Positions 732 through 20,450 of a stretch of DNA of 64,000 bases are shown here, piece by piece (positions within the stretch are counted from its first letter, which is position 1; each line of letters opens with the position of its first letter). The position numbers were made by a program, and so were the translations under genes. The notes below the pieces were generated by a model, which did not search any database, was not told the DNA's origin, and worked only from the letters and a program-made list of their open reading frames with translations. Location: contig NZ_APHJ01000021.1 of NCBI RefSeq assembly GCF_000403785.1, forward strand, positions 248,001 to 312,000, read 5' to 3'. This DNA is from Gillisia sp. CAL575 (GTDB taxonomy: Bacteria > Bacteroidota > Bacteroidia > Flavobacteriales > Flavobacteriaceae).

Positions 732-2558
732 CTAATTACCACCTATAACATCACTCTTTTCTGAAATCCCATTTTCATTAAAGGCTTCTACCTGAAAAAA
801 GTATTCTGTAGCTACATTTAAAGCTTTTAGTTCGTAGTTATTTTTATCATAAATCAGCACAGAATTATTAAGCCTGTCTGGTTTAATACCCCAATACAGC
901 ACATAGCCTTGAGTATTGTCTATGCTCTCCCAATTTAAAGTGGCATTTCTTCTATCACTCTCTCTTTTCACTGCAAAGTTTTCTGGCTTAGATGGTTTTT
1001 TACCTGAACCTATTCCAAAAACCCTGAATTCTGAAATTGCTAAATATTTATTGGAACAAAACACATGTTTATATCTAACATACCTTGCTTCTATTTCTTT
1101 CTCAAATTGAATAAAAGCATGAGGTTGATCTCTTTGATTTTTGGAATAATCGGCTGCAATTTTCCAATTTTTCTTATCTGTTGAAGCTTCAATTATAAAC
1201 TGATGTTTCAAATTATCCGGACGGCCAAATACCTCAGCATTTACGTCGTGAAAATTGATTTGAGTGGCTTTTAAAGTCATTTTACTTCCCAGATCTACTG
1301 TGAAATAAATGGAATCATTATTCTGTTCAGAAACCCAAAAAGATCGGATATTTTCATCGGTAAGCTTGGAAATATCATAATTCTCCTCCAGCTTTTCGGG
1401 CGTATATCCTTGTTCAGTCTCTTCGATTGTTTTAGCATGAAGCGTTGCTAAAGGAGCATTAGTTTCAACAGACTTGTTATATGATAATAACATCCATCCT
1501 GTAAAGCGATTTTTGTGATTATCTACTTTTGCATCTGGTAAATAATGCGGGTAATCTCCATAAGCTGTATTTACGTACATCTGCCCATCCTCTTCGAATC
1601 CTGCAGGGTACATGCCAATTCGGCGTTCAAATTTATAGTTTACAGAGATTGGCATCGTTGCATAATGCCAATAATTTCCATTAAAATCTTGAACCGTACT
1701 TCCATGACCGGCGCCGTTTAAAAATCCTCCCGGTTTGTAGGAGATAGGATTGTATTCAGCATAAGTAAACGGTCCCAAAGGACTATCCCCTACATATACC
1801 CCATCTGCATAAACATTCCACTGTGTTCCGGGAGCCGCGTATTGCAAATAATATTTACCGTTATGCTTCGTCATCCAAGGTCCTTCAATAAATGGTTTTA
1901 CATCTGAATCGTGGTTATTTCCAAAACGTTCCCAACCATGTTCATCTGGGTGTAATGTTATTAGATCTACCGGTTCTCCAATTGGCACGTAGTTGTTATT
2001 TGGATCCAATTCCAATCCCTTAATTGGAAATAAGTTGGAAGAACCTTCGTAAACATATACCCGTTTATCATCGTCTACAAAGATCGCAGGATCATGAAGA
2101 GTATGTGGAATTACACTATAGGTGGTTTGCCAATCTCCTAATTTGGGATTGTCGGTTTTAATTAATGCGTTTACGCCGGAAGGATCTCCTATCACCAAGA
2201 TCTCATCTTCTGTCGCCCAAGCTGCAGGAGCATTAGAACCATTAAAATACCAGCTTTGTGGCTCTATGAATTCCCAATTAGACATGTCTTTGGAAAACCA
2301 ATATCCATGAGAACGGGTTACAAACATATAATACCCGTCTTTATAACGAACTACAGAAGGATCTGCCCCGCTCCTGTAACTCACATTTCTGAAGGCGTAA
2401 TGAGACATGTAAGAATAGTCTATATCTATAGGGTTACAATAAGCAGTAAAACCTTGTTTTACTTCAACTTCATCGGATTTCTGTGATGTTGATTTAATTT
2501 CACTATCCCCACATGAAAAAATGAACACAAGTGATATAAGAAGCAGAAATTTTTTCAT
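732..2558 (-). CDS. GH43-like glycosidase with F5/8C and FN3 domains, lipoprotein
   Basis: A 608-residue protein with a lipoprotein signal (lipobox Cys at residue 16, followed by GDSE). Residues about 60-370 form a GH43-type five-bladed propeller: the three acidic catalytic residues of the family are visible as D66 (GADPSVV), D156 (LHDPAIF) and E225 (FIEGPW). Residues about 390-515 look like an F5/8C (discoidin) carbohydrate-binding domain and the last 90 like a fibronectin III domain. GH43 enzymes mostly attack arabinosides, xylosides or galactosides, so its bond in this glucan locus is not predictable. It is the last gene of the PUL, 20 bp after GH97. Family is secure, substrate is not. Confidence 0.8.
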   Translation of the reverse strand: MKKFLLLISLVFIFSCGDSEIKSTSQKSDEVEVKQGFTAYCNPIDIDYSYMSHYAFRNVSYRSGADPSVVRYKDGYYMFVTRSHGYWFSKDMSNWEFIEPQSWYFNGSNAPAAWATEDEILVIGDPSGVNALIKTDNPKLGDWQTTYSVIPHTLHDPAIFVDDDKRVYVYEGSSNLFPIKGLELDPNNNYVPIGEPVDLITLHPDEHGWERFGNNHDSDVKPFIEGPWMTKHNGKYYLQYAAPGTQWNVYADGVYVGDSPLGPFTYAEYNPISYKPGGFLNGAGHGSTVQDFNGNYWHYATMPISVNYKFERRIGMYPAGFEEDGQMYVNTAYGDYPHYLPDAKVDNHKNRFTGWMLLSYNKSVETNAPLATLHAKTIEETEQGYTPEKLEENYDISKLTDENIRSFWVSEQNNDSIYFTVDLGSKMTLKATQINFHDVNAEVFGRPDNLKHQFIIEASTDKKNWKIAADYSKNQRDQPHAFIQFEKEIEARYVRYKHVFCSNKYLAISEFRVFGIGSGKKPSKPENFAVKRESDRRNATLNWESIDNTQGYVLYWGIKPDRLNNSVLIYDKNNYELKALNVATEYFFQVEAFNENGISEKSDVIGGN

Positions 2559-2578
2559 AATTCAGTTTTGCTTTTATT

Positions 2579-4678
2579 TTAATTAATTGGCACTATACTA
2601 ATAGCCGTTCCACCTCCAGCCGCCAAACTGAGTTTTAGTTTTGATTTACTTGTAACTGTTTGCTCTTTTATGGAATAGCTCTTTGGATTAGCTTTCCAAT
2701 CGGCATCTTTTCCATCTTGGTAGATAATAGCTTTGTATTTTTTGTCTGGAGATAAGAAATCAAGTTTTATTTCTGTTTTTCTTGAATTTTCATCGGTGAT
2801 CGCACCTAAGAACCAAGCCTCCGAGTTTTTATCTTTTCTTACAACAGTTAGATAATCCCCTGGTTCGGCTTCAAGATATATGGATTCTTGCCAATCTGCC
2901 GGTACATCTTTTATAAATTGAAAAGCATCCAGATATCTCTCGTAATTCTCTGGTAAATCTGCAGCCATTTGTAAAGGCGAGTACATAGTGACATATAAAG
3001 CCAGTTGTTTAGCTAGAGTGGTATGTACTTGTTCTGTCTTGCTTGGGTCATAAATATTCATCTTTATCTCGAAGATCCCCGGAGTATAATCCATAGCACC
3101 TCCCAGCAATCTTGTAAACGGTAAAATGGTTTCATGCTTTGGATCGTTACCGGAACTCCATGCATTAAATTCATTTCCTCGTGCAGCTTCTGCTGCAATA
3201 TAATTAGGATACGTTCTGCTATATCCTGTGGGGCGAACACTTTCGTGAGAATTCACCATGATCTTATAATCTGCAGCTCGTTCTGCAACAAAATTAAAAT
3301 GATTCACCATTGTTTGCCCGTCATGATATTCACCTCTTGGGATAATCTTACCTACGTAACCTGACTTCACTGCCGGGTAATCATATTTTTTCATTAGATC
3401 GAAAGCTCTATCCAGATGTCTTTCATAATTTGCTACAGAGCCAGAAGTTTCATGATGCATGATCATCTTTACTCCCTTAGATTTAGCATATTCTGAAATT
3501 TCTTTAATATTGAAATCCGGGTAAGGCGTGGTAAAATCAAATACATCTTCTTTCCAATTCCCAAACCAGTCTTCCCAGCCTACATTCCAACCTTCTACCA
3601 ACACCCCGTCAAAACCATGTTTTGCAGCAAAATCTATATATCTTTTAGTATTCTCTGTAGTAGCGCCATGCTTTCCAGAAGGAATAAGTTCTTTAGATGC
3701 TGCATTTTGAGCATTTTGGCTCCCTGCAAAATCCCATGTGGATTTACCAACATGCATTTCCCACCAAATTCCAATATATTTCATTGGCTTAATCCAGGAA
3801 GTATCATCAATTTTATTAGGTTCATTAAGATTCAAGATCATTTTTGAACTTACAATATCACGGGCATCATCACTCACCATAATAGTTCTCCAGGGAGAAA
3901 CGGAAGGCGTTCTTAAATAAGCTTTATCTCCAAGTGCATTTGGAACTAATTGCGATGTAAGTTGAAAATTTTCAATATCTACATTTAAGTGCATCACAGG
4001 ATAATTGACCACCGCAGCTTCAAAAATATTGAGATACAAGCCATCATTAGATTTCATCATCAATGGTGATTGCACCCTATAATTGCTTTCAATACTTTTA
4101 AGAGCGATCCCGTTATTTGAATCCAATTTGGAATTGTCTATTTCAGATAGCTTAGTTTCAGAATACACATATTCCTGACTGTCATAATCTCCTGGAATCC
4201 AAAAAGTTTTATGATCTCCGGTAAGATTGAATTCTGTATTCTCTTCAGAAACAATAAAATATCTAACTGTATCTTCCTCCGGAAATTCATATCTAAACGC
4301 TACGCCTTCATCATATACCTTAAAAACGATATCAAATTTTTTATTGGTTTCCTTTTGAAGCAAATGAAACCTAACCTGATTGTAACGATTTCTGATGGTG
4401 GATTGCTCTCCCAATACAGGATCCCAGGTTTCATCAATATTAGTTTCCTCTTTATTTACAAGGCTGAAACCACTCGTAAGAGAAGTATCTTCTTTTAAAG
4501 AAACACCCAATTTACTAGCTTTAATTACTTCCTTGCCTTTATAATTAACTTTATAAATAGGTTCTCCTTCCGTACTTAGGGAGAATTCTACCTGTATATC
4601 TTTTGAGGGAGATTGGATCTTTTGTGCTGAAAGGGTGAAAAAAGAACACGCCAATAATAAAAAAGATAATTTTTTCAT
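2579..4678 (-). CDS. GH97 glycosidase, SusB-type (inverting alpha-glucosidase class)
   Basis: A 699-residue protein with an N-terminal signal peptide (cleavage likely near LSAQ), an N-terminal beta-sandwich and a catalytic barrel. E410 (MHHETSG), E479 (NSHES) and E503 (GNEFNAW) have the same mutual spacing (69 and 24 residues) as the catalytic glutamates E439, E508 and E532 of SusB from Bacteroides thetaiotaomicron. The place where retaining GH97 alpha-galactosidases carry an Asp nucleophile reads VKSGYVG, without Asp. This supports an inverting alpha-glucosidase in the periplasm. It lies in the PUL between GH3 and GH43 and is unexpected in a purely beta-glucan locus. LLAC in the signal leaves open that it is a lipoprotein. 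Confidence 0.87.
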   Translation of the reverse strand: MKKLSFLLLACSFFTLSAQKIQSPSKDIQVEFSLSTEGEPIYKVNYKGKEVIKASKLGVSLKEDTSLTSGFSLVNKEETNIDETWDPVLGEQSTIRNRYNQVRFHLLQKETNKKFDIVFKVYDEGVAFRYEFPEEDTVRYFIVSEENTEFNLTGDHKTFWIPGDYDSQEYVYSETKLSEIDNSKLDSNNGIALKSIESNYRVQSPLMMKSNDGLYLNIFEAAVVNYPVMHLNVDIENFQLTSQLVPNALGDKAYLRTPSVSPWRTIMVSDDARDIVSSKMILNLNEPNKIDDTSWIKPMKYIGIWWEMHVGKSTWDFAGSQNAQNAASKELIPSGKHGATTENTKRYIDFAAKHGFDGVLVEGWNVGWEDWFGNWKEDVFDFTTPYPDFNIKEISEYAKSKGVKMIMHHETSGSVANYERHLDRAFDLMKKYDYPAVKSGYVGKIIPRGEYHDGQTMVNHFNFVAERAADYKIMVNSHESVRPTGYSRTYPNYIAAEAARGNEFNAWSSGNDPKHETILPFTRLLGGAMDYTPGIFEIKMNIYDPSKTEQVHTTLAKQLALYVTMYSPLQMAADLPENYERYLDAFQFIKDVPADWQESIYLEAEPGDYLTVVRKDKNSEAWFLGAITDENSRKTEIKLDFLSPDKKYKAIIYQDGKDADWKANPKSYSIKEQTVTSKSKLKLSLAAGGGTAISIVPIN

Positions 4679-4700
4679 ATATTTTATTTTATTCGAACCT

Positions 4701-4729
4701 ATTACTTAATAAGTTCAAATTTAGTTTTT
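4701..4729 (-). repeat. Diverged duplicate of the 3' end of the GH3 gene
   Basis: Twenty-nine bases here match 4849-4877, the end of the GH3 gene, with two T/C differences. Read on the minus strand the copy encodes KTKFELIK plus a TAA stop, against KTKFELVK plus TAA in the real gene. The two copies bracket about 120 bp of REP-like sequence. Confidence 0.75.
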
Positions 4730-4730
4730 T

Positions 4731-4848
4731 CATCATGCTGTTCCGATAGCTATCGGAATTGTTTCAGCATCCCAGTACGTCTAGATTAATGAGACCCTGA
4801 ATCAAGCTGGTCAAGTCCTTGCGGGACGTAAAACGGATATACGAGCTA
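4731..4848. repeat. REP-like composite element, copy 2
   Basis: Contains a perfect 18-bp palindrome, TTCCGATAGCTATCGGAA (4741-4758), framed by ATGCTG (4735-4740) and CAGCAT (4765-4770), so a long hairpin can form. Downstream GAGACCCTGAATCAAG resembles the second unit of copy 1. It lies between GH3 and GH97, flanked by the 29-bp repeat described separately. It may influence expression of the downstream GH97-GH43 pair. Confidence 0.6.
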
Positions 4849-4849
4849 A

Positions 4850-7213
4850 TTACTTAACAAGCTCAAATTTAGTTTTTAGTGTTTCATTAGAGTTGGTACC
4901 AACAAATACCTCAAAATCTCCGGACTCTGCAACAAAATCCAAATCATAATTATAGAATTTTAGGTCTTCTACCGTTAATTTGAAAGTCACAATTTTAGTT
5001 TCCCCTTTTTTCAAGAATATCTTTTGAAAACCCTTTAACTGTTTAACAGGTCTGGTTACAGATCCTACGAGATCTCTTATGTACAATTGCACAATTTCTT
5101 TCCCATCGTAATTCCCTGTGTTTTGAACTGTCACAGAAACCTCTAAAGATTCATTTTCCTTTAATTGATCTGAGCTTAATTTCAAATTATCATATTTAAA
5201 GTTGGTATAGCTTAATCCGTAACCGAACGGATACAAGGGTTCATTACGTTCATCTATATAATTTGAACGGAATTTTTCAAACTTCCCTTCTGAGTTGCTA
5301 AGTGGTCTTCCGGTGTTTTTATGACTGTAATAAATTGGAATCTGACCTACACTTCTAGGAAATGTTGCGGTGATTTTTGCTGAAGGGTTTACATCTCCAA
5401 ACAATACATCTGCAATAGCATAACCAGCTTCTGTTCCGGCAAACCAAACATCTAGGATCGCAGGAACCGTTTCATTTTCTTCAGTAAGAACTAAGGGACG
5501 CCCATTAAATAAAACTAAGATCACCGGTTTTCCTGTTTTCAGCAATGCTTGGAGTAGATCTTTTTGAGCCTGAGGAATAGAAATATTTGTTCGGCTACTG
5601 CTTTCCCCACTCAGTTCTGCAGATTCACCAATTGCTGCAATAATAACATTTGCTTTTGAGGCAATAGCTATCGCCTCTTTTAAGAGTTCCTCATCAGATC
5701 TGCCATCTCTTGGGATCTCCTTTCCAAACATAGTACCCCTTTCTTCAAGCCCTTTATCGTATGAGAGATTACTTCCTTTTGCATATAATACAGAACCAGA
5801 ACTGCCAACCACTTCCTTAATCCCTTGAAGCACAGAAATAGATTTATCCTGAGGGGTTGCCACACTCCAGGTTCCTGCCATATTCTCACTGGTATTTGCC
5901 AAGGGACCAATAACTGCAATGATCTCAGATTTTTTAATCGGCAAAAGGTTGTTCTCGTTTTTCAACAAGACCATAGATTGTGAGGCCACTTTTCTAGCGA
6001 AAGCTCTATTTTCTGAAGTAAATATTTCTGATTTTGCCCTATTTACATCAATATACCTATATGGATCTTCAAATAAACCTAACTCATATTTTGACTCTAA
6101 AATCCTTCTTACAGAAGCATCAACTTTCTCTATGGAGACTTTATCCTCATCTAATGATTTCTTTAGAGTTGAAACAAAACCTTCTCCTACCATATCCATA
6201 TCTACACCTGCATTCAATGCTAATGCGGAAACAGCTTGTAGATCTCCCATTCCGTGATCTATCATTTCATTAATTCCTGTATAATCTGTAACTAAAAATC
6301 CTGAAAAACCCCATTGAGATCTTAATACATCTGTAAGCAACCACTTATTCCCTGTAGCAGGAATCCCATCTACTTCATTAAACGAAGCCATAACCGATCC
6401 CACTCCGGCATCTATTGCCGCTTTATATGGTGGGAAATAGTCGTTATACATACGTATTCTACTCATATCCACGGTGTTGTAATCTCTTCCCGCTTCAGAA
6501 GCGCCATACAAGGCAAAATGCTTAACAGTAGAAAGTATAGTGTTATTCTTACTTAGATCATCGCCTTGATAGCCATGAACCATAGCTTTTGCAATTTCAC
6601 CTCCCAAATATGGATCTTCCCCATTCCCTTCAGAAACACGTCCCCATCTTGGATCTCTCGAAATATCTACCATAGGAGAAAATGTCCAATTAATACCATC
6701 GGCGCTTGCTTCTTGTGCTGCAATTCTTGCGGTTTCTTGTATTAAAGGCATGTCCCAACTAGTGGACAATCCTAGAGGAATTGGAAAGGTAGTTTCATAA
6801 CCATGAATTACATCCATTCCAAATAATAAGGGAATTTTAAGTCGACTCTCTTCGACTGCGATCTTTTGAACTTCTTTTATTTTTTCAACAGATTTAATAT
6901 TAAATAAGCCTCCTATTTTCCCCTCTTTTATTTTCGTGGCAACATCAGAACTTTTGGACTGGCCAGTTGTGATATCCCCAGAAGAAGGTAAATTTAGCTG
7001 ACCCAATTTCTCTTCCAATGTCATTAAGGCAATTAGGGAATCGATTTTCTTATCCATTTTGACCTTATCTGCCTTAAAGGCTGAATAATCTATGCTTTGA
7101 CTTTTATTTGAGCTGGCATTATCTTGAGCATTCATAGCAAAAGAGCAACCGCATATTGCTAGTAAAATCAGGTTCTTTTTCAACATCGGAATCTTATTTA
7201 TTGTGTAATTCAT
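4850..7213 (-). CDS. GH3 beta-glucosidase
   Basis: A 787-residue exported enzyme, typical length for BglX-like GH3. After a signal peptide (ending near FAMNAQ) come the (beta/alpha)8 domain, with KHFALYGASEAGRDY and the nucleophile segment GFLVTDYTGI (Asp of TDY), the alpha/beta sandwich domain (about residues 405-640) and a C-terminal FN3-like domain from about 690. GH3 members hydrolyse terminal beta-glucosides; characterised Bacteroides GH3 enzymes include beta-1,2-glucosidases acting on sophoro-oligosaccharides, which fits the neighbouring GH144 genes. A second ATG at 7186 gives a more compact signal peptide and may be the real start. The 3' end has been duplicated downstream. Confidence 0.88.
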   Translation of the reverse strand: MNYTINKIPMLKKNLILLAICGCSFAMNAQDNASSNKSQSIDYSAFKADKVKMDKKIDSLIALMTLEEKLGQLNLPSSGDITTGQSKSSDVATKIKEGKIGGLFNIKSVEKIKEVQKIAVEESRLKIPLLFGMDVIHGYETTFPIPLGLSTSWDMPLIQETARIAAQEASADGINWTFSPMVDISRDPRWGRVSEGNGEDPYLGGEIAKAMVHGYQGDDLSKNNTILSTVKHFALYGASEAGRDYNTVDMSRIRMYNDYFPPYKAAIDAGVGSVMASFNEVDGIPATGNKWLLTDVLRSQWGFSGFLVTDYTGINEMIDHGMGDLQAVSALALNAGVDMDMVGEGFVSTLKKSLDEDKVSIEKVDASVRRILESKYELGLFEDPYRYIDVNRAKSEIFTSENRAFARKVASQSMVLLKNENNLLPIKKSEIIAVIGPLANTSENMAGTWSVATPQDKSISVLQGIKEVVGSSGSVLYAKGSNLSYDKGLEERGTMFGKEIPRDGRSDEELLKEAIAIASKANVIIAAIGESAELSGESSSRTNISIPQAQKDLLQALLKTGKPVILVLFNGRPLVLTEENETVPAILDVWFAGTEAGYAIADVLFGDVNPSAKITATFPRSVGQIPIYYSHKNTGRPLSNSEGKFEKFRSNYIDERNEPLYPFGYGLSYTNFKYDNLKLSSDQLKENESLEVSVTVQNTGNYDGKEIVQLYIRDLVGSVTRPVKQLKGFQKIFLKKGETKIVTFKLTVEDLKFYNYDLDFVAESGDFEVFVGTNSNETLKTKFELVK

Positions 7214-7249: not shown

Positions 7250-7966
7250 TTATTTGTTTTCAATCTTACTCTGACTCAATAACCAATCATAGAATTCTGG
7301 ATTATTATAAGTCTCTGTCCAGCTATTATGATTTGCATAAGGGTAAAGTGTATATTTCACGTCATTCCCTGCTTCTAAAAGAGTTTTCACCATCTGGTTG
7401 CTATTCTCTGGCAGCACCACATCATCTAAAGCTCCATGAAAAACCCAAATAGGCATATTTTTAATATGAGATATATTTCTATAGATAGGTCTATAAATTG
7501 CACCGCAAACTGGTGCCATAGCAGCAAAAAGTTCCGGATATTCTCCTCCAGTAGCCCACACACCATAACCTCCCATGCTTAATCCTGTGAGGTAAACTCT
7601 GCTTTCATCTATTCGGTTCTCTTTAATCACTTTATTAACCAGTGCTGCAACTTCATGTGGTTGCCAGTAAACTCCTTCAGGACATTGAGGAGCCAGTATA
7701 ACCGCATTAATTTCATTGCCATCTTTAATATATTGCAAGGGTCCATGTGCAGCTACTTTGGAAAGATCAGTCCCACGCTCTCCCGCTCCGTGAAGAAACA
7801 CAATAAGTGCAAAGTCTTCTGTAGAATCTTGATACCCTTTTGGAGTATGTAGCAGATAGTCAAGCTTTACAGGAATTTCTACCTTCTCATCAAAAGAATG
7901 CTCAGAAATCTGAGAAAACGATGAGGCATAAATGAAGATGAAAAGTAAGCCCAAATATTTTTTCAT
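7250..7966 (-). CDS. Secreted alpha/beta-hydrolase, carboxylesterase-like
   Basis: A 238-residue protein with a signal peptide (MKKYLGLLFIFIYASSFSQ). The alpha/beta-hydrolase fold is shown by the oxyanion segment FLHGAGERG, the nucleophile elbow GLSMGG (S130), an acid at D181/D182 (GALDDVV) and H213 (ANHNSW). It resembles PUL esterases of the CE1/phospholipase-carboxylesterase type. It sits between GH144 and GH3, 11 bp from the former, so it should be co-transcribed. A plausible job is to strip acyl groups that would block the glycosidases; that is inference. The substrate cannot be read from the sequence. Confidence 0.75.
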   Translation of the reverse strand: MKKYLGLLFIFIYASSFSQISEHSFDEKVEIPVKLDYLLHTPKGYQDSTEDFALIVFLHGAGERGTDLSKVAAHGPLQYIKDGNEINAVILAPQCPEGVYWQPHEVAALVNKVIKENRIDESRVYLTGLSMGGYGVWATGGEYPELFAAMAPVCGAIYRPIYRNISHIKNMPIWVFHGALDDVVLPENSNQMVKTLLEAGNDVKYTLYPYANHNSWTETYNNPEFYDWLLSQSKIENK

Positions 7967-7976
7967 ATTGATATTC

Positions 7977-9350
7977 TTAATATTGAAATCCTAATTTATC
8001 CAATCCAGTTTTAATTTCTTCAGCTCCCATAAAGAGATCCCAAATCAATCCAGACCTGTAGTTCTCTATCATTACAACCATTGGGCCTTGATCTATAGCT
8101 AAATATTTTGCTGCCACCCAATCTTCTTCCTCAAGGCTAAAAGCATCATAAAATCCCGCTGGACCCCAAGTTAGATCATGAAGATCATTGTAGAAATAAC
8201 TCATAGCTTTTAAAGATTCTTCCGGAGTGTATACAATAGAACTTATTGCGGCAGTAGGAGAGATTACACCTACATCATTCGTAGGGGAATGAGCGGTGTA
8301 ACCAATACTACCATCTTTATTTTTAGTATAACTTGCGGTTAAACCCCAAACATTTTCTCCATATCCCTCATAATTTTTAGGATTAGCAAGACAGTATAAA
8401 TAGTTGATCTTGGAATGATTGACATTTAAATCCCAGTACTCAGCATATTGATCTTTAAGCCCTTTCGGGTTTAATCCTAAATATGAATAATGAGACCAAA
8501 ATAATGGTCCTCCAAATTCTTCTGAACCATTATGCTTTACAATTAGTGGCAGGTCATACTTTTTATTTTCGGTTTTGATATTTCCATTTCTGGCCCATCC
8601 GTTGTGATAGGTTTTTGCCGATATAGAATGCTTAGGGGACGCTGCAGCCAGTATATAAGTTATTAGAGTTTCGTTATATCCTTCTAATGGAAAATTCATT
8701 TCCCAAGCGTATTCTGGAGACCAGTGCCAATGCAAAACATCTTTATTATTGGTGTACCAGTACCAATCTATACCATTCCAAAGCTCATCATATTTAACTG
8801 CCACTGCTCTTTCTTCTTCATTTCCGTTTTTAAGGTATTCTCTTATCACTATAAAACCTTGTGCTAAAAAAGAAGTTTCTACAAGATCACCACCATTGTC
8901 CTTTTTCCCAAATGGTTTCGTTTTTCCAGTTTCACCATTTATCCAATGAGACCAGGCACCATGATATCTGTCGGCTTTTCCAAGAAAATCTGCTATCTTA
9001 TTTAACCGTTGAACCCCTTCTTCTCTAGGAATGAATTCTCTATCAATTCCTACGATTAAGGCCATTAAACCAAAACCAGAACCACCTGTGGTTACAATAT
9101 GTTTGTCATTTTGAGGATAATTATCATCAGGATGATATCTCTCTCTCGCCATTCCAGAATTAGGTTCAGCAAAATCCCAGTAATACTTTATAGTTTGACG
9201 TTGAACACTATCTAATAAAGCTTCTCCTTCTAATCTTTCAGTTTTATTAATATCTACAACTACAGCTTGTGTCTTATTTTCTTCAATTTTATGCTTACAC
9301 GAGACATTTAGAATTAGTGAAATTATTAAAAGGGCTTTGTAAATTTTCAT
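7977..9350 (-). CDS. GH144-type beta-1,2-glucanase (glucoamylase-fold), copy 1
   Basis: A 457-residue lipoprotein of the Glycoamylase (PF10091) domain family, to which GH144 belongs. Family hallmarks are YYWDFAEPNSGMARER, VTTGGSGFGLMALIVG, the ETSFLAQG segment, HWSPEYAWEMNFPLEGYNE, SPTNDVGVISPTAA and the C-terminal AIDQGPMVVMIENYRSGL. GH144 contains endo-beta-1,2-glucanases and exo-acting sophorose-releasing enzymes. The lipobox Cys is followed by KHKIEENK, without an immediate acidic run, so this copy is more likely periplasmic than the second one. The start is the ATG at 9350; the upstream TTG at 9368 is not needed. Endo or exo action cannot be decided. Confidence 0.82.
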   Translation of the reverse strand: MKIYKALLIISLILNVSCKHKIEENKTQAVVVDINKTERLEGEALLDSVQRQTIKYYWDFAEPNSGMARERYHPDDNYPQNDKHIVTTGGSGFGLMALIVGIDREFIPREEGVQRLNKIADFLGKADRYHGAWSHWINGETGKTKPFGKKDNGGDLVETSFLAQGFIVIREYLKNGNEEERAVAVKYDELWNGIDWYWYTNNKDVLHWHWSPEYAWEMNFPLEGYNETLITYILAAASPKHSISAKTYHNGWARNGNIKTENKKYDLPLIVKHNGSEEFGGPLFWSHYSYLGLNPKGLKDQYAEYWDLNVNHSKINYLYCLANPKNYEGYGENVWGLTASYTKNKDGSIGYTAHSPTNDVGVISPTAAISSIVYTPEESLKAMSYFYNDLHDLTWGPAGFYDAFSLEEEDWVAAKYLAIDQGPMVVMIENYRSGLIWDLFMGAEEIKTGLDKLGFQY

Positions 9351-9485
9351 GTATTGAATTTGTTTCAATTAGTTTAAAATATGTTGCCCTCCCATTATGG
9401 AAGTGCAACATATTTTACTAATTCAAAAAAGGATAATAAATTTTAGCTATTCATGGATATGATGATCCATAGAGGATCTATCTAA

Positions 9486-11545: not shown

Positions 11546-12922
11546 TTATATATTTGGGCTTGTGAAGCCTAATTTTGTTAATCCTTGTTTTACTTCAGGA
11601 CAAGACATAAATAAATCCCATAACAATCCTGTTCTATAATTTTCTATCATAACTATTATTGGTCCTTGATCTATCGCTAAATATTGATTTGAATACCAAT
11701 TGGCGGACTTATTAAAGGCATCATAAAATCCATATTGTCCCCATAATTTTCCATCAAAATTACAGTAGAAATTTCTAAGAGCTTTCAAAGATTCATCTGG
11801 AGTATATGGCATAGAAGACAATGCTGCTGTAGGCGTTATAGTTCCATTATCGTTAGTTGGACTATGTGCAGAATAACCCTCATTATCATCACTAGCAGTC
11901 AAGCCCCAATTTGTAGCACTATATCCCTCAAAACCTTTCGGATTTCTCACACTATACTCCCTATTTATAAGAGTATGATTTTTATTTTGATCCCAGTAAT
12001 TGGCATACTTATCTACTAATCCTTCAGGATTTAATCCTAAAAAGGAATAGTGAGCAAAAAATAAAGGTCCCCCAAAATCTGGTCCTAGTGGAAGTTGCCA
12101 TTTCTGGTAGTATAATCTTCCATTTGAAAAATTATTGCCAGAAGCCCATCCATTATGATAAACATCTGGGTCTATGGAATGAGTTCTGGAAGATGCTGCT
12201 AAAACATAAGTTATAAGAGCTTCATTATACCCTTGAATTTGATGATTAATGGCAAAGTTAAATTCCGGAGACCAATGCCAAGTCAGCGATTTTTTATTAT
12301 TTGTATACCAATCCCATTCTACCTGATCCCAGATCAGATTAATTTTATCTCTTAAATCCTTTTCTTCGGAATTGTCTAAGTCAAAATACTGTCTTGCTGC
12401 TAATAAACCTTGAATCATGAAAGAAGTTTCTACAAGATCTCCCCCATTATCTTCAGTAAAAAAGGGTTTTACTTTTCCTGTATTCCCGTTGTACCAATGA
12501 GGTAAAGCACCATGAAACCTATCTCCATTCAAAATAAAATTGGTAATAGTATTTAATCTTTGTAAAGCTTCCTCACGCGATATATAATTTCGCTCAACAC
12601 CAACAATTATTGCCATCACTCCAAACCCGCTGCCTCCTGTTGTAACTATATTAGGACTTTCGCCCCCATAGGCACTAGGGTCGGATCTTTCTCTAGCCAG
12701 ACCGCTAACGGGATGTGCAAAATCCCAAAAATATTTGAAAGTTTGTTCCTGCACCTTATCCATTAACTCAGCATCTGCTAACTGCGATGGCAAACTTGGA
12801 TTTGGCTCTGTTGGAACTGGTTTATCCACATTATTATCCTCATTACTAGAACAAGAAACAATTCCTGAACTGATAAGTCCTACAAAAAGTAGTGTGAAAA
12901 TAAATCGTGATTGTTTCATCAT
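11546..12922 (-). CDS. GH144-type beta-1,2-glucanase, copy 2, probably surface-exposed
   Basis: A 458-residue paralogue of the other GH144 protein, with the same blocks: YFWDFAHPVSGLARER, VTTGGSGFGVMAIIVG, HWSPEFNFAINHQIQGYNE, SPTNDNGTITPTAA and AIDQGPIIVMIENYRTGL. The signal peptide ends in a lipobox (GIVSC) followed by SSNEDNNVD, an acidic stretch resembling the lipoprotein export signal known from Flavobacteriia, so the enzyme is probably on the outer face of the outer membrane and makes the first cuts in the polymer. It lies directly downstream of SusD. Family assignment is firm; linkage specificity follows from characterised GH144 members only. Confidence 0.83.
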   Translation of the reverse strand: MMKQSRFIFTLLFVGLISSGIVSCSSNEDNNVDKPVPTEPNPSLPSQLADAELMDKVQEQTFKYFWDFAHPVSGLARERSDPSAYGGESPNIVTTGGSGFGVMAIIVGVERNYISREEALQRLNTITNFILNGDRFHGALPHWYNGNTGKVKPFFTEDNGGDLVETSFMIQGLLAARQYFDLDNSEEKDLRDKINLIWDQVEWDWYTNNKKSLTWHWSPEFNFAINHQIQGYNEALITYVLAASSRTHSIDPDVYHNGWASGNNFSNGRLYYQKWQLPLGPDFGGPLFFAHYSFLGLNPEGLVDKYANYWDQNKNHTLINREYSVRNPKGFEGYSATNWGLTASDDNEGYSAHSPTNDNGTITPTAALSSMPYTPDESLKALRNFYCNFDGKLWGQYGFYDAFNKSANWYSNQYLAIDQGPIIVMIENYRTGLLWDLFMSCPEVKQGLTKLGFTSPNI

Positions 12923-12963: not shown

Positions 12964-14409
12964 TTAATAGCCTGGGTTTTGCATCAACTGACCTTTACTA
13001 AGGTCAATTTGAGCCTGTGGAATTGGAAATAACTCATGTTTACCATCCACAAAGTTCTTTCCGTGAGCACGTAAAACTTGTCCTGCTCTTCCTTGACGAA
13101 CTAAGTCAAAATATCTATCATGTTCAAATGCAAGTTCCCATCTGCGCTCTTTCCAAACATCCATAATCGTAACATTGTCCAAGCCTTCAAGTCCTGCTCT
13201 ATTTCTAACTAAATTCAATGGAGTTTTTGCATCTCCACCCACATTAAGAGCAGCTTCCGCATTCATTAAAAGCACCTCAGCATATCTTAAAATCCGAACA
13301 TTTTTATTAGACTCCCAATCCCCACCATTAAAGGTTTCCATAGTTTTACTTACATAAGCTTTTTGATTATATCTGGGATTGGAAACTGTTTCTGCAACTA
13401 GCAATCCATCCCATAAAGTTTCTCCTCTAAAAATGATGGTTGCATCTTTTCTTTTATCTCCATCTTCATAAGAATTAGTAAGATCTTCGGTTGGAGTATT
13501 GAATCCCCAACCCCATCCTCCAGCGCCTCTAGCACCTTGAGTAACAAAATATCCTTGAACTCCTTTATTTGGAGTTTCTCCTCTACCCTGGATTTCAAAG
13601 ATAGACTCTGAATTATTTTCTCCAATTTCTTTCCAGATGTCTTCATATTCTGGGGTTAAACTATAACCTAGACCCATTACCTCATTAGTTAGATCATACA
13701 CTTGTTGCCAATTACCCTGATACATATTCACTTTTGCCAAAGCCGTTAATGCGGCACCTTTAGTTGCTCTACCTAGATCTGCACTAGAATAGGAAGTAGG
13801 CAAACTCGCTACAGCATCGGTTAGATCTGAAGTGATGAAAGCATAGATATCTTCTTTTGAAACTCTGTTATAAGCAGCATTTATATCATCTTCATTTTCA
13901 ATATCTGGTACTTTATTTATTAATGGTACTCCTCCAAACATTCTAACCAATCTAAAATAATATTCCGCTCTTAAAAACTTGCTCTCCCCAATTAATCTAG
14001 TTTTAAGGTCTTCATCTATTTCTAGATCTGGAAGATAATTTAGCGCCTGATTGGCTCTGGCAATACCTTGATAGTTTGCTTCCCAAACCTCATTGAAAGT
14101 TATAGAAGTAGAAGTATGCGTTAAGGCATCCAACTTATCTTTGTCAGCTCCCGTATCACCCGGATCGCTACCTTTATCGGCATCATCTGTTGTTATACTA
14201 CTAACCCCTATCCAGGAAAAAGCACTTTCATTAGAGTCTAATAATTTATTATAAATAGCATTAACCAGCTCTGTTGCTGCGTTAGGGCTAGAAAGGGCTT
14301 GTTCTGGAGTTTCCTTGGAAGGTTGCACATCCAAAAAGTCACTGTCATCACATGCTACAAATGTTAAGAATATAGCACCGGAAATAATTATATTAATAGG
14401 ATTTTTCAT
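12964..14409 (-). CDS. SusD/RagB-family outer-membrane lipoprotein
   Basis: A 481-residue SusD homologue. The signal peptide ends FVAC and is followed by DDSDFLD, an acidic surface-export signature. N-terminal TPR-like helices carry the usual ESKFLRAEYYFRLVRMFGGVPL, and the C-terminal part has NVRILRYAEVLLMNAEAAL and WKERRWELAFEHDRYFDLVRQG. SusD proteins cap the SusC transporter and bind oligosaccharides. The gene ends 41 bp before GH144 copy 2 and follows SusC by 12 bp, so SusC-SusD are clearly one unit. Confidence 0.93.
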   Translation of the reverse strand: MKNPINIIISGAIFLTFVACDDSDFLDVQPSKETPEQALSSPNAATELVNAIYNKLLDSNESAFSWIGVSSITTDDADKGSDPGDTGADKDKLDALTHTSTSITFNEVWEANYQGIARANQALNYLPDLEIDEDLKTRLIGESKFLRAEYYFRLVRMFGGVPLINKVPDIENEDDINAAYNRVSKEDIYAFITSDLTDAVASLPTSYSSADLGRATKGAALTALAKVNMYQGNWQQVYDLTNEVMGLGYSLTPEYEDIWKEIGENNSESIFEIQGRGETPNKGVQGYFVTQGARGAGGWGWGFNTPTEDLTNSYEDGDKRKDATIIFRGETLWDGLLVAETVSNPRYNQKAYVSKTMETFNGGDWESNKNVRILRYAEVLLMNAEAALNVGGDAKTPLNLVRNRAGLEGLDNVTIMDVWKERRWELAFEHDRYFDLVRQGRAGQVLRAHGKNFVDGKHELFPIPQAQIDLSKGQLMQNPGY

Positions 14410-14421
14410 AGCTAGATTTTT

Positions 14422-17394
14422 TTAAAAATTTAAATTCACACCTACGATATAGGATTTTACAGAAGGGTATGCATTCAATTCAATTCCTGAGCTCCCTAAC
14501 GGATCTCCATTCCCTGGTAATTCTGGCGTAAACCCGGTGAACTCCTTGAAAATAAATGGATTCTGTGCCAAGGCATAAACCCTTATCTTTTTGACTCCTG
14601 TAAACACATCTGGTAATGTATATCCAAAAGTTATATTATTAATTCTGAAGAAATCACCGCTTTCCAAAAAGTAAGTAGATGAAAGTGGCACTTCATTAGA
14701 TGGAGCAGGGTTCATATTAGTTCCGTTATCAAAACTAAATATATTGTTGGCTGCACTTGCCTCAATATTTTCTCCTCCAAAACGCTGTGCTTTTTTACCA
14801 TTGTACACCATGCTTCCAGCGTTGCCATAACCTTCAATATTAAAATCCCAGTTCTTATAATCAAAACCTGCACTTATACCATAAAATATGTCTGGCTGAA
14901 TAGAACCAAAAAATTGACGGTCATCGTTATCAATTTCACCATCATTATTTAAATCTCGATAGACAAAATCTCCTCTCTCATCAAAGCCTTCAACTTCCAG
15001 CAGAAAGAAACTTCCCAAAGGCTGACCTTCCCTTAAAAGTTTTGTTACTTGTCCATTATCAATACTACCACCTTGTTGTTCAAAAGCAAAAGGGTTAGTG
15101 ATTTCTTCAAGCTGATTGTCATTAGTCGTGATATTCCCGCTAAAATGATAATTGAAATCTTCGTTTATCTTATCATTCCAATGCAATGCAAACTCCAAAC
15201 CTTTGTTTCTAATCTTACCGGCATGAGTTAAAGTGAGTCCAGAAGCACCAAAAGCATCAGGTAAACTAATTGGCAGGATCGCATTCTTGTTTAGTCTATC
15301 GTAGTAATCAAATTCTCCTGAAAGTCTATTATCAAGAAAGGCAAATTCAACTCCAATATCATATTCTTCTGTAACTTCCCAACCAACATTTTCATCTATA
15401 ATCGCAGTGATCGTTGATCCAGGAACTAATACTTGATCTGGACCAAAAACAGCTCCTAGGTCTGTATTAAAAGTCAAAGCGTTCAAAGGAATATTTTGGT
15501 TCCCCAATTGTCCCCAACTTGCTCTTAATTTAAGAGTATTTAAAAAATTAGAATTACTTAAGAATTCTTCATTAGATACCAACCAACCAATTCCTACAGA
15601 TGGAAAATTACCCCATTTTTCATCTGTATTTGCAAATACACTAGAACCATCACGTCTTATAGTAGCAGTTAAAAGATATTTATTATCAAAATCATAATTA
15701 AGTCGAGCAAAATAAGAACGCAATCTTCTTGTATCTGAAAGTGCATTACTTACAATGTCTGTCCCTTGCTCCCCATTATTGAGTGAGAAAAGGTTTGAAT
15801 TTTCAGGCACGTTATTTCGAGTACCTTCTAAAAAATCATTTTGCTCCTCTTCTGCGGTGGTTCCTAACGTAATTTTAACCCCATGTTTTTCAACAAATGT
15901 TTTATCAAAAGTCAAGAATGCATCGAATACCCAGTGATAGAAATCATCTTTCCTAACCCTAAGTGTATTTCTATTAGGAGAATCAAAGTCTGAAACTTCT
16001 CTGGTAGGATCTGCAGCAAGGAATTGTTCTAAATTCGGAGTAAAAACGTAAGATTTTCCATATCCACTTTCAATTCCAAATCTTGCAGTTCCTGTCAAAT
16101 AATCAGTAAAATCATAGGTGGCAGAAACGTTCCCTTGAAGAATTAGATTCTTCTTTTTTTCGTCATTCAACTCTAGGTCCGCAACCGCATTACCTACATT
16201 ATTAAATCTGCCTCCGGAATTATCAAATGGCACTCCAAATCTTCCATCAAAAGAACCTCCGATATATCTTACAGGCACAATTGGGGATTGTTTATAGGCT
16301 GTTGTAAAAGCCGAAAATGGTTTTGGAACTGAGCGGTTAAGAGATAAGGAAATATTATGGTCAAATTTTAATTTTGAAGTCAAATTATAGCTAGCCTTGC
16401 TTCTTAAGTTAAGTCTGCGGTAATCATTCCCAATTAATACTCCCTCTTCTTCAAAATAGTTAGCACTAAAGTAGGAGGTCATTTTTTCTGTACCTCCACT
16501 AATAGAGACATTATGGTTAGTAACAGTTCCCATTCGGGTAATCTCCTCAAACCAATCTGTATCATATTGTTGTTCTTGATCAAATCTTTGGAATCCAAAT
16601 GCCAAATTAGAAAAATTAACAAAAGAACTGGAATTGGCCATATCAACCTTGCTCAACACATCCTTAACTCCATAATAGGAAGAAACATCTACCTGCATCT
16701 TACCAATTTTCCCTGCTTTTGTGGTTACGATAATAACCCCGTTAGCACCTCTTGTACCATAAATGGCCAATGAGGATGCATCTTTAAGTATATCTATAGT
16801 AGTAATATCTTCACTACTAATATTATCAATTCTATCGGTTATAATTCCATCTACGACATAAATTGGATCACGGCCAGCTTGTACCGTCCCTGTTCCGCGA
16901 ATACGCACTACTGGTGAACTACCTGGTGCTCCGGAGCTAATGATTTGTACTCCAGCAGCTTTACCTTGTAAAGACTGGGTTGGAGTTAAGGCTGGCTGCT
17001 TAATAAGTTCTTCAGCATTTATTCTGGTAATAGAACCCGTTACATCTTGTTTTCTAGTACTTCCGTATCCTACAAGTACAACTTCTCCTAAAGAGGAAGC
17101 ACTTTCTGCCATTAATATGTTAATATTATTACGTGCACCAACACTTTCCTCAATAGTCTCGAATCCTAAAAAACTAAATATTAAGGTATCGTTTTCGTTT
17201 GCACTAATAGAATAGTTACCGTCAAAATCTGTTATAGTACCCTTGGAAGTACCTTTTACTAAAACATTAACTCCTGGAAGAGTTACTCCGTCAGGCTCCG
17301 ATGTTACGGTTCCCGAAATTAATTGGTCCTGAGCCTGTAATTGAAAATAAAACAAATTCAGCAACACAAATAATAAAGTAAATTTTGTTTTCAT
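14422..17394 (-). CDS. SusC/RagA-family TonB-dependent transporter
   Basis: About 990 residues from the chosen ATG at 17394, which gives a clean signal peptide (MKTKFTLLFVLLNLFYFQLQ); an ATG at 17451 would add 19 residues and spoil it. A carboxypeptidase-regulatory-like domain (GTVTSEPDGVTLPGVNVLVKG) precedes the SusC marker EVVLVGYGSTRKQDVTGSI, the plug (RIRGTGTVQAGRDPIYVVDG) and a long beta-barrel ending in VGVNLNF. It imports glycan oligosaccharides across the outer membrane using TonB energy, with SusD as lid. A TAGATTTG box lies about 80 bp upstream. Confidence 0.94.
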   Translation of the reverse strand: MKTKFTLLFVLLNLFYFQLQAQDQLISGTVTSEPDGVTLPGVNVLVKGTSKGTITDFDGNYSISANENDTLIFSFLGFETIEESVGARNNINILMAESASSLGEVVLVGYGSTRKQDVTGSITRINAEELIKQPALTPTQSLQGKAAGVQIISSGAPGSSPVVRIRGTGTVQAGRDPIYVVDGIITDRIDNISSEDITTIDILKDASSLAIYGTRGANGVIIVTTKAGKIGKMQVDVSSYYGVKDVLSKVDMANSSSFVNFSNLAFGFQRFDQEQQYDTDWFEEITRMGTVTNHNVSISGGTEKMTSYFSANYFEEEGVLIGNDYRRLNLRSKASYNLTSKLKFDHNISLSLNRSVPKPFSAFTTAYKQSPIVPVRYIGGSFDGRFGVPFDNSGGRFNNVGNAVADLELNDEKKKNLILQGNVSATYDFTDYLTGTARFGIESGYGKSYVFTPNLEQFLAADPTREVSDFDSPNRNTLRVRKDDFYHWVFDAFLTFDKTFVEKHGVKITLGTTAEEEQNDFLEGTRNNVPENSNLFSLNNGEQGTDIVSNALSDTRRLRSYFARLNYDFDNKYLLTATIRRDGSSVFANTDEKWGNFPSVGIGWLVSNEEFLSNSNFLNTLKLRASWGQLGNQNIPLNALTFNTDLGAVFGPDQVLVPGSTITAIIDENVGWEVTEEYDIGVEFAFLDNRLSGEFDYYDRLNKNAILPISLPDAFGASGLTLTHAGKIRNKGLEFALHWNDKINEDFNYHFSGNITTNDNQLEEITNPFAFEQQGGSIDNGQVTKLLREGQPLGSFFLLEVEGFDERGDFVYRDLNNDGEIDNDDRQFFGSIQPDIFYGISAGFDYKNWDFNIEGYGNAGSMVYNGKKAQRFGGENIEASAANNIFSFDNGTNMNPAPSNEVPLSSTYFLESGDFFRINNITFGYTLPDVFTGVKKIRVYALAQNPFIFKEFTGFTPELPGNGDPLGSSGIELNAYPSVKSYIVGVNLNF

Positions 17395-17472
17395 AAGCAC
17401 AATTATTTTTGAAGAATTAATGTTTTCAGATTTAAATAGATCATGGCACATTAAATTACAATGAGATCATAC

Positions 17473-17480
17473 CAAATCTA
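17473..17480 (-). promoter_or_regulatory. Candidate -7 element upstream of susC-like gene
   Basis: TAGATTTG on the minus strand matches the Bacteroidota -7 consensus TAnnTTTG. It would leave a leader of about 70 nt before the SusC start at 17394. No good TTG is seen at the -33 position, which is common for activator-dependent promoters. Confidence 0.4.
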
Positions 17481-17601
17481 AGACTAGAAACAACAATGTT
17501 AATATTTGCTCAATATAAGTAAACACATCAAGTTTAAAGGTAAACCTAAATACTTGTATTACAGTAAATTATGAATTAAAAATAAAGTAATTAATTTAGG
17601 T

Positions 17602-17667
17602 ATAGGCTACAATGATGTGGAAAAGATGTGGTGTAAGAGGACTTATTACAACGTTTTCGTAGCCTAT
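17602..17667. promoter_or_regulatory. Inverted repeat enclosing an 11-bp direct repeat, between regulator and SusC
   Basis: ATAGGCTAC (17602-17610) and GTAGCCTAT (17659-17667) are perfect inverted repeats around 48 nt. Inside, GATGTGG occurs twice (17614-17620 and 17625-17631), exactly 11 bp apart. The right arm touches the stop codon of the regulator gene. It could be a binding site for that regulator upstream of the SusC promoter, or a weak terminator or attenuator. Confidence 0.35.
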
Positions 17668-20450
17668 TAAAGGACATTATGTAAAAATTTAACCAAATTT
17701 TTGTTTTTCGGAAGATCAAACTTCTTACGCAACCTATATCGATGTAATTCTACACTTCTATAAGTAATTCCAACTAAAGGAGCAATTTCTTTGGAACTAA
17801 GATTCATGGTTAGATAAGCACACATTTTTAAATCTTTTGGGGTAAGATCTGGAAATTTTTTCTGTAAATTTTTAAAGAAATCATCATGAACTTCATTAAA
17901 GTTTCTATCAAAAAGGGCCCAATCATTTTGAGAATTTGATTGTTGCTCTTTAATATTCATCAATTTTGAATAGAGCATCTTATTCTCTTTTTTAATATTT
18001 GACTTTAATATTTCCTTTTCTATTTCATTCAACATATCTTCTTTCTTTGCCATAAGGGCAGCGTAAGAAGCTAATTCTTTGCTTTTTGATTTTAGTTGGG
18101 TTTTTAATTTCTCCTGTTCTAAAAGGGTAATTTTACTGTTATTTTCGAAATTTTGCTTTTGAAAAGTCAGTTTCTGTTTATAGTCTAATTCCTTTTCAAG
18201 TACCTTTTTCTTTCTCTTAAATTTAATTTTGTTATAATAATGAACAAGAAACAGAATTATGATCAAAACCAACATATAGCCAACCCAAGCCCAAATATTA
18301 AAATACCAAGGTTGCAAAACACTAAATGAAAACAGTGATTTTTCTATACTTTCATCTGCGCTATTTTGTCTTACCTTAAATTCATAATCTCCTGGATGTA
18401 GATTCTGATAAACTACATGAGAAGTGATATTTGGTACAGACCACTTTTTATCGTAACCCTCTAACTTATAAGAATAAAGTGGTAAAGACAATGTACCCGG
18501 AGAATGGCTAGAAAATTTAAAGCTAATGGTATTTTTCTTAAATGGAATATTAACTGAACTATCAAGAGAAATAGAATTGCCATTAACTTTAACCGTTTCT
18601 AAAGATAGATTTGCGAATTCAGTTTCTTTTTTAGAATTAATTGGATTGATTTGTAAAAAACCATCATCCAAAAATAAAAAAAGAGAATTATCAATTTTAT
18701 TTGCACTTGGTGAATTCTTAACGATCCGGCTATTAATTAAGTCCTCATTGAAATTATACAAATTATCACCTGTTGTAGATGTAATTCTAAGCGAACTCAA
18801 ATTCTTTATAACTAACAATTCTTTATTGATGGTAGCTATACTTGCAAAGGGATATAACTTTTGTTCTAATATAGCGTCTTTCGCTAAGGCGCCATGAAGT
18901 GGATCATATCTATATATTTCATTGTTTTTTGTCAAGAAAATTTGTGTACCTATAGCAAATATCTCATAAGTAACATTTGGATCATTAAAACTTTTGAGAA
19001 GTTTCAATTCATTAAAGTCATCAGAAATTTTATATTTAAAAATGCCCTTATGTGCTGCATCCACCCACAAATGTTGATCTTGATCAAAATATATGCTTCC
19101 AACCGGAAAGTCTAGATTTTCAAATCTATATGATTCCCAGACTCCATTGACTTTTATATATCTGGTAACTCCAGAATAATTAGGTTGCAGATAATACTCA
19201 GTACCAGAAATATTAACAAAACCCATACCTCCGTTGGTGCTGCTTATTAAATTAAATTCATTGTTTTTTATGCTATAGGTGCCATTGTTATGTCCGCAGA
19301 TAATTTCATCTCCTACTTTGGTAAGATTCCATACATGACCATTTGAGGCTTCTAATAACTCCAATTGGGTTCCTTTTAACTTAAAAACACCATGATTAGA
19401 TCCTATTAAAAGATTTTCATCTTGCTTAACTATACTATATACGGTTCCTAACAATCCTGATTTATCATTATACGCATATACATTTTTAGTTAGAAGCACT
19501 TTAGATAAACCATTATCCAATGCAAGCCACAAGTTATTCTGGTCGTCTAAAAACTGCCTTAAAACGGTATTATTTGCTAAGCCATTCTTTTTGTTATATA
19601 CATGTTTCAGCACCCCCTCAGCATTATAAACCATGAGTCCATTATTAATGGTCCCAACACAAACTAATTCGTTTACTATTTTTAGATTATTTATCTCCGG
19701 ATACGGCACGTCATCAATAGAAGAAAAAAACCATTTTTTTAGAACAGTATCCTTAAAATAATAAAGGCCATTATTTTGGGTAGCAATCAATAATCCGCCT
19801 TTATAATCTACAATACTTTGGATAGTATAATTATCTAGAGGTTCACTCCACTCCAATTTTGTTATACTATCATTCTCTATTTTGTAAATACCATTATTCT
19901 TGGTGCCTACATATAAATTATCATGAATTAAAAAAGTATAAACTGCCGAGATATTACCAAAAGGTAGAATACGAATTCTTTTGGTTTGGGTATTATACCT
20001 ATATATTTTATTGAAAGATTGAAATAAAATTTCTTCACCAAACGGGATTATTTTCCAAATCTCATCATTATTGAAAATTTCCTGATCAATGGAATTACTT
20101 AAGGAAGTGTATTGTAATTCATTCTTATCATTTTTAATCCAGTAGCCGAATTGATGATAAGAACCGGAATATAAAGTATCGTTAATAACATTTACAGATC
20201 TTAAAATCCCTTTAGAAGGCAAACTGTACTTAGTCCAAAAATCTCCATTGAAAGCTAAAAGATTCTTATTGTTTGCAACATATACAGTTCCATCTGGATG
20301 CTGAGTAATATCCCAGTTGGAATTTTCCCCTCTATAATCGGTTTTTAGATAATTTGTAAAGTAAGGAGCTATTTCCTGCCCTTGTAAAGTAAAACATGCA
20401 GTTAGAAGCAAGCTAACTAAAACTACTTTCATTTCCTTTAATACATCCAT
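17667..20450 (-). CDS. Membrane-anchored propeller/Y_Y_Y regulator with LuxR-type HTH
   Basis: About 927 residues from the ATG at 20450 (a second ATG at 20432 gives a tighter signal peptide). The periplasmic part is a two-component-regulator-type beta-propeller (repeats such as GGLLIATQNNGLYYF and NNLWLALDNGLSKV), followed by a Y_Y_Y domain (about 625-710), one transmembrane helix (about 720-740), a long coiled coil and a C-terminal LuxR/GerE-like helix-turn-helix (LTPKDLKMCAYL ... SSKEIAPLVGITYRSVELHR). There is no histidine-kinase or receiver domain, so it should sense a sugar outside and bind DNA inside in one chain, in the manner of SusR. It lies directly upstream of and codirectional with SusC and is the presumed PUL activator. 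Confidence 0.85.
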   Translation of the reverse strand: MDVLKEMKVVLVSLLLTACFTLQGQEIAPYFTNYLKTDYRGENSNWDITQHPDGTVYVANNKNLLAFNGDFWTKYSLPSKGILRSVNVINDTLYSGSYHQFGYWIKNDKNELQYTSLSNSIDQEIFNNDEIWKIIPFGEEILFQSFNKIYRYNTQTKRIRILPFGNISAVYTFLIHDNLYVGTKNNGIYKIENDSITKLEWSEPLDNYTIQSIVDYKGGLLIATQNNGLYYFKDTVLKKWFFSSIDDVPYPEINNLKIVNELVCVGTINNGLMVYNAEGVLKHVYNKKNGLANNTVLRQFLDDQNNLWLALDNGLSKVLLTKNVYAYNDKSGLLGTVYSIVKQDENLLIGSNHGVFKLKGTQLELLEASNGHVWNLTKVGDEIICGHNNGTYSIKNNEFNLISSTNGGMGFVNISGTEYYLQPNYSGVTRYIKVNGVWESYRFENLDFPVGSIYFDQDQHLWVDAAHKGIFKYKISDDFNELKLLKSFNDPNVTYEIFAIGTQIFLTKNNEIYRYDPLHGALAKDAILEQKLYPFASIATINKELLVIKNLSSLRITSTTGDNLYNFNEDLINSRIVKNSPSANKIDNSLFLFLDDGFLQINPINSKKETEFANLSLETVKVNGNSISLDSSVNIPFKKNTISFKFSSHSPGTLSLPLYSYKLEGYDKKWSVPNITSHVVYQNLHPGDYEFKVRQNSADESIEKSLFSFSVLQPWYFNIWAWVGYMLVLIIILFLVHYYNKIKFKRKKKVLEKELDYKQKLTFQKQNFENNSKITLLEQEKLKTQLKSKSKELASYAALMAKKEDMLNEIEKEILKSNIKKENKMLYSKLMNIKEQQSNSQNDWALFDRNFNEVHDDFFKNLQKKFPDLTPKDLKMCAYLTMNLSSKEIAPLVGITYRSVELHRYRLRKKFDLPKNKNLVKFLHNVL

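Follow-up and report, generated by a model that had tools for sequence, protein, structure and literature searches.

A flavobacterial polysaccharide utilization locus, probably for β-1,2-glucan, with a removable GH97–GH43 pair

Why does a locus probably equipped for β-1,2-glucan, a polymer whose natural sources are poorly known despite the commonness of GH144 genes, also carry a predicted α-glucosidase? The question arises from a 64,000-nucleotide stretch of the genome of Gillisia sp. CAL575 (hereafter the window), for which an initial annotation proposed that a GH97 enzyme would remove the α-linked glucose of a cyclic glucan once GH144 and GH3 enzymes had opened and trimmed the ring. The answer we prefer, with a probability of about 0.73, is that the genes would form a flavobacterial polysaccharide utilization locus (PUL) for β-1,2-glucan, extended by a removable pair of GH97 and GH43 genes.

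Layout and gene content of the locus

Ten codirectional genes on the minus strand (732-20459) make up a single locus, as delimited from the ORF list and Pfam domains, in a host genome of 3.64 Mb that is 99.5% complete (Table 1). SusC adjoins SusD, the glycosidase genes run in the same direction and a regulator accompanies them, as is characteristic of Bacteroidota PULs; the intergenic gaps from SusC to GH43 are all small, the largest (171 bases) lying between GH3 and GH97. ORFs and Pfam domains bear out the initial annotation's codirectional set of two GH144 genes, a GH3 gene and SusCD, to which the GH43, the esterase, the four-repeat binding lipoprotein and the regulator are now added. The Y_Y_Y/LuxR protein is likely the regulator of the PUL, and the lipoprotein with four CBM_4_9-like repeats is likely a surface glycan-binding protein. 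Neither a sulfatase nor a GH2 gene was found in the locus by ORF list and Pfam, and a promoter and terminator scan gave matches no commoner than in shuffled sequence.

Table 1. Features of the locus, in order of transcription (20459 to 732)
Feature	Coordinates	Strand	Evidence
Regulator, Reg_prop/Y_Y_Y with LuxR-type HTH	17667..20459	-	PF07495, PF07494; PF00196 under cut-off
SusC/RagA TonB-dependent transporter	14422..17451	-	TIGR04056, 784 bits, above cut-off
SusD-like lipoprotein	12964..14409	-	PF07980, PF14322; lipobox VAC-DDSD by eye
GH144-B, lipoprotein by eye	11546..12922	-	PF10091, 265 bits
Lipoprotein, four CBM_4_9-like repeats of 154-158 aa	9486..11462	-	PF02018; lipobox SSC-TEEE by eye
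GH144-A	7977..9368	-	PF10091, 265 bits
α/β-hydrolase, predicted secreted serine carboxylesterase	7250..7966	-	Pfam; S130-D181-H213
GH3 β-glucosidase, BglX group	4850..7213	-	NF011678, 940 bits, above cut-off
GH3-GH97 spacer, palindromic element	4679..4849	.	sequence comparison
GH97, N, catalytic and C domains	2579..4678	-	PF14508/PF10566/PF14509; PF10566 366 bits
GH43 with F5/8C and fn3, lipoprotein by eye	732..2558	-	Pfam

Among the accessory enzymes, the esterase keeps its triad unchanged in 24/24 aligned proteins, and its structure model (pLDDT 89; top Foldseek esterase match 3doh) has a carboxylesterase fold of the ordinary kind. The GH3 protein matches PDB 3u48 (1170 bits) and 5xxl (1093 bits), the latter of which we take to be BT_3567, an enzyme acting on β-1,2-glucan. 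GH43 residues D66, D156 and E225, presumably catalytic going by general knowledge of the family, are unchanged in 31/31 aligned proteins; the best fold match of its structure model (pLDDT 81) is BT_3662 at 19% identity, which does not reveal its specificity.

The spacer between GH3 and GH97 contains a perfect palindrome, TTCCGATAGCTATCGGAA, which occurs at four places in the genome, together with an imperfect direct repeat of the end of the GH3 gene. It is shorter in G. mitskevichiae, and looks like a small repeat insertion. Elsewhere in the window, the ORF list places a lipoprotein with two similar halves (31325-33334) beside a TonB-receptor-like gene (28558-31341).

Catalytic residues and placement of the GH144 and GH97 proteins

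Both GH144 proteins belong to the family by homology to the endo-β-1,2-glucanase CpSGL over the catalytic barrel and by PF10091 scores above the cut-off. In a PDB search, CpSGL is nearest by score to GH144-A (5gzk/5gzh, 596/595 bits), for which a TTG start is listed and an ATG a few codons further in is likelier, while GH144-B lies nearest to the uncharacterised 4gl3 (538 bits), with CpSGL at 534 bits. The CpSGL residues known to matter (D135, D139, E142, E211, F268, Y330 and D400; PMC12102758) are kept 7/7 in each protein, with D135/D139/E142/E211 corresponding to D157/D161/E164/E233 in GH144-A and D158/D162/E165/E234 in GH144-B. In a tree of 142 rows, drawn without BDI_3064 and XcSGL, GH144-A falls in a 57-row branch (99% support) made up mostly of second genes of their loci, with CpSGL outside; GH144-B shares a 42-row branch with 4gl3 (100% support), and GH144-A and CpSGL come together only in branches of more than 75 rows. 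Since both proteins stand outside the grouping of CpSGL, we infer β-1,2-glucanase activity from family, score and residues, and GH144-B is likely a surface β-1,2-glucanase. The β-1,2-glucan PUL proposed by the initial annotation is well supported by homology, through the CpSGL score and published GH144, GH3 and SusCD sets, and gains no support from phylogenetic placement, the check that had been suggested for it, as neither protein falls with the characterised enzyme.

The solved GH97 nearest to the GH97 protein is 8wg0 (858 bits), which we take to be FjGH97A, with SusB at 842 bits; its residues E169, E362, E410, E479, E497 and E503 align with SusB E194, E391, E439, E508, E526 and E532. Inverting GH97 enzymes carry Glu at SusB positions 439, 508 and 532, retaining ones an Asp nucleophile (PMC12102758). 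The three catalytic glutamates named in the initial annotation (E410, E479 and E503) were exactly placed, and domains, SusB match and catalytic residues all back its assignment to the SusB type, supporting a predicted inverting α-glucosidase that, from a type I signal peptide recognised by eye, is likely periplasmic. We also considered a retaining α-galactosidase and rejected it: NF053844 scores 304 of 800 bits, far under its cut-off, and the inverting Glu set is kept.

FjGH97A prefers α-1,6 linkages and SusB α-1,4, and α-1,6 linkages are preferred or strongly cut by both FjGH97A and PspAG97A (PMC10316084). In our tree the GH97 group of the window is separate from both FjGH97A and SusB. Positions conserved in the group are shared only with FjGH97A in 26 cases, only with SusB in 17 and with neither in 73; as eight of the 26 precede the start of the SusB fragment, the comparable count is 18 versus 17, and the distinctive residues favour neither enzyme.

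These comparisons bear on the first explanation for the α-glucosidase, in which GH97 would serve the single α-1,6 bond of α-1,6-cyclised β-1,2-glucans: GH144 would open the ring, GH3 would trim from the non-reducing end and GH97 would remove the α-1,6-glucose so exposed. Such glucans of 13, 16 or 18 glucose units with one α-1,6 bond exist in Ralstonia, Xanthomonas and Cereibacter, and are often succinylated or acetylated, groups that would employ the esterase too (PMC11842490). The α-1,6 activity already described within family GH97 (PMC10316084) favours this explanation, whereas the even split of distinctive positions speaks against it, and it leaves the GH43 gene unaccounted for. It is logically sound, and we regard it as possible but unproven, one of three live explanations and rather unlikely to be the right one.

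Distribution of the GH144 core and of the GH97–GH43 pair

GH144 scores above the cut-off in 52/199 genomes of the family, 13/16 of the genus and 105/296 of the phylum. We compared 80 GH144 loci, of which the family and genus searches supplied 62 and the other 18 were picked from the phylum search, with the window excluded and genes counted by blastp against the window proteins; the counts are lower bounds, because the stretches were at most 20 kb long and some were ended by contig ends. GH3 is present in at least 70 loci, SusD in at least 64, SusC in at least 62 and two or more GH144 genes in at least 56, followed by the esterase (at least 53), GH43 (at least 39), the four-repeat binding protein (at least 12) and GH97 (at least 10, two of which, L121 and L145, carry a distant GH97). 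The core of SusCD, GH144 and GH3, mostly accompanied by the esterase, represents a β-1,2-glucan PUL type that is already known and widespread: GH144 PULs are abundant in Bacteroidetes, the marine ones carrying a sulfatase (PMC6499787), and in Maribacter a GH3, two GH144, SusCD and sulfatase genes lie together (PMC8072126).

Individual loci vary around this core. In two mosaic Gillisia PULs (L114 and L172), SusC and GH144-B (and SusD in L114) are 30-58% identical to the window, against 75-92% for GH144-A, esterase, GH3 and GH97, which looks like an exchange of the import half. A sulfatase-type gene lies between esterase and GH3 in Gillisia marina (L169) and in L114, with none there in the window or in G. 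mitskevichiae (L170). In L166, a third and longer GH144 gene (13861-16047; 729 aa) stands between the usual two. The distant GH97 near the GH144 locus L121 (G019:C1:539666-541252) looks decayed because it contains two internal stop codons.

The window's combination of GH144 and GH97 recurs in other genomes, so that a locus unique to this genome was rejected. The closest GH97 from a named genome is that of Gillisia mitskevichiae (95% identity); those of G. marina and G. lutea come next. The best 80 relatives from named genomes comprise 33 with GH144 in the same stretch, 30 without it, and 17 on short stretches (under 12 kb) that likewise show no GH144. The 33 GH144-linked copies directly follow GH3 in 32 cases and directly precede GH43 in 29, counting as neighbours only ORFs of at least 150 aa. 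When 69 GH144 genomes were searched with the window GH97, ten had a copy at 76% identity or above, nine of them inside the GH144 locus, and the remaining copies among the matches listed (E up to 1e-100) were at most 60% identical.

The pair is also missing from close relatives of the window locus. In two Gillisia loci, L171 and L176, the PUL from GH3 upwards matches the window (83% and 77% DNA identity) and the same flanking gene is present (265 and 259 aa), with the GH97 and GH43 genes absent. The L171 spacer (9037-9329, 293 bases) retains 156 bases of GH97-like DNA (71% identity, E 3e-13 in a small search), and L171 branches among GH97-bearing loci in the GH3 and GH144-A trees, the remnant and the tree position together indicating that the pair was lost in L171; GH97-like DNA was not found in the 80-base spacer of L176. 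The GH97–GH43 pair is thus an optional, recurrent extension of a known kind of PUL. The statement that the trimmed glucan would need exactly such an enzyme was too strong, because 70/80 GH144 loci show no GH97 and L171 and L176 lack the GH97–GH43 pair only. Dispensability of this sort is also what α-1,6-cyclised glucans would lead one to expect, as with one such bond per ring a GH97 would be useful yet dispensable; against them, the GH97 group lives outside GH144 loci too.

It is those other copies that suggest a second explanation, namely that GH97 would be a general α-glucosidase feeding glucose to the cell, sharing the operon for regulation and acting on α-glucans other than the β-1,2-glucan. 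For the 30 copies without nearby GH144, the gene before is AlaDH_PNT-like in 23 cases and the gene after is an MFS permease in 22. Of the 46 genomes whose GH97 copies are not near GH144, 38 have no GH144 domain; the completeness of these genomes is not stated, many being MAGs, and among the 12 that are isolates by our own count, 10 are likewise without the domain. GH144-linked and other copies intermix in Flavobacterium, no position cleanly separates the two sorts, and only five positions distinguish the window branch from 46 other copies at a level of 85% or more. A separate clade of GH144-linked GH97 copies with residues of its own was rejected, the GH144 label requiring 19 changes on the GH97 tree (at least 15 of them forced by supported branches, or 14 without short stretches and references) with no clean residue difference. 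Conversely, the five distinguishing positions also speak for a dedicated role, the window branch itself (19 rows, 99% support, with five genomes entered twice and hence 14 loci) is GH144-linked in 13/14 loci, the fourteenth (L036) standing behind GH3 at a contig end, and L171 lost GH97 together with GH43. Some of the copies without nearby GH144 may moreover be cut or eroded PULs, because GH3 precedes them (3/30, plus 3/17 on short stretches). We regard a general α-glucosidase as a genuine possibility, albeit one with clearly less than an even chance.

Proposed function, modularity and comparison with known systems

With localisations judged from signal peptides by eye, we infer the following order of action for the preferred reading, a β-1,2-glucan PUL with a removable pair. 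Surface GH144-B, SusD, the four-repeat lipoprotein and perhaps GH43 would bind and cut the glucan, and SusC would import the pieces. The esterase would remove acyl groups, periplasmic GH144-A and GH3 would convert the chains to glucose, and GH97 would take α-linked glucose off oligosaccharide ends where GH3 halts. Because some closely related loci have the GH97–GH43 pair and others lack it, the role of α-linked glucose in β-1,2-glucans can be tested directly.

In a third explanation, GH43, GH97 and GH144 would act jointly on a true substrate other than β-1,2-glucan, either a heteropolysaccharide or a different 1,2-linked glycan. Such a substrate is suggested by the frequency of GH43 (39/80), of a sulfatase cluster (32/80) and of a GH2 cluster (11/80) in GH144 loci, by the sulfated marine relative that Lapebie et al. 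infer (PMC6499787), and by a GH144 PUL of B. xylanisolvens, in which a GH35 is a β-1,2-galactosidase and which shows that a neighbour in a GH144 locus can have another substrate (PMC11739564). In the window locus, however, sulfatase and GH2 are absent, the best score of GH144-A is to CpSGL and the GH3 protein reaches 1093 bits with 5xxl, and we consider this explanation improbable.

The accessory genes of the 80 loci may also be viewed together. Extra codirectional clusters comprise sulfatase (32 loci), LamG-type lipoprotein (32), Exo_endo_phos (15) and BD-FAE esterase (15), and more rarely GH2 (11), Metallophos (6) and glycerophosphodiesterase (4), each family being named from one representative and the counts carrying no control for chance frequency. 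The glycerophosphodiesterase lies between GH3 and GH43 in four Flavobacterium-type loci (L147, L177, L178 and L179), the slot occupied by GH97 elsewhere. Periplasmic glucans bear succinyl, acetyl, phosphoglycerol and phosphoethanolamine groups (PMC11842490), and the match between these decorations and the extra phosphoesterase and esterase clusters suggests that GH144 loci of Flavobacteriaceae could be modular and serve to scavenge the periplasmic (osmoregulated) glucans that other bacteria make, with a fixed GH144–GH3 core and genes swapped according to the features of each glucan. Succinyl and acetyl groups would then fall to esterases, and phosphoglycerol and phosphoethanolamine to phosphoesterases, glycerophosphodiesterase among them; GH97 (with GH43) would deal with α-linked glucose, the α-1,6 ring closure included. 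Sulfate and any GH2 substrate do not belong to the decorations named there (PMC11842490), and our literature search returned no paper joining periplasmic glucans with polysaccharide utilization loci. We offer this modular scheme as speculation that is unlikely on present evidence; if true, locus content could be used to predict which species recycles which bacterial glucans.

Our literature search, with most subscription journals and PULDB outside its scope, returned no description of a GH144 locus with GH97, and the known systems each resemble the window locus in part. The Bacteroidetes GH144/GH3 PULs (PMC6499787), including that of Maribacter dokdonensis 62-1 (PMC8072126), have the same set of GH144, GH3 and SusCD; the marine ones carry a sulfatase that the window lacks, whereas the GH97–GH43 pair and the four-repeat binding protein of the window are not mentioned for such PULs in the accessible parts of these sources. 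FjDexUL of Flavobacterium johnsoniae, with FjGH97A (PMC10316084), likewise places a SusB-type periplasmic GH97 in a SusCD locus, but its backbone enzymes (GH66, GH31 and GH65) are for dextran, in contrast to the GH144 and GH3 of the window, whose GH97 belongs to a separate group in our tree. SusB of B. thetaiotaomicron, likewise of the inverting GH97 type, shares its catalytic glutamates with the window GH97; its context is α-1,4 starch, and in the tree it has a branch of its own. Finally, the GH144–GH35 PUL of B. xylanisolvens, like the window, has a further glycosidase beside the GH144 of a SusCD locus, a GH35 β-1,2-galactosidase there as opposed to the GH97 and GH43 found here (PMC11739564).
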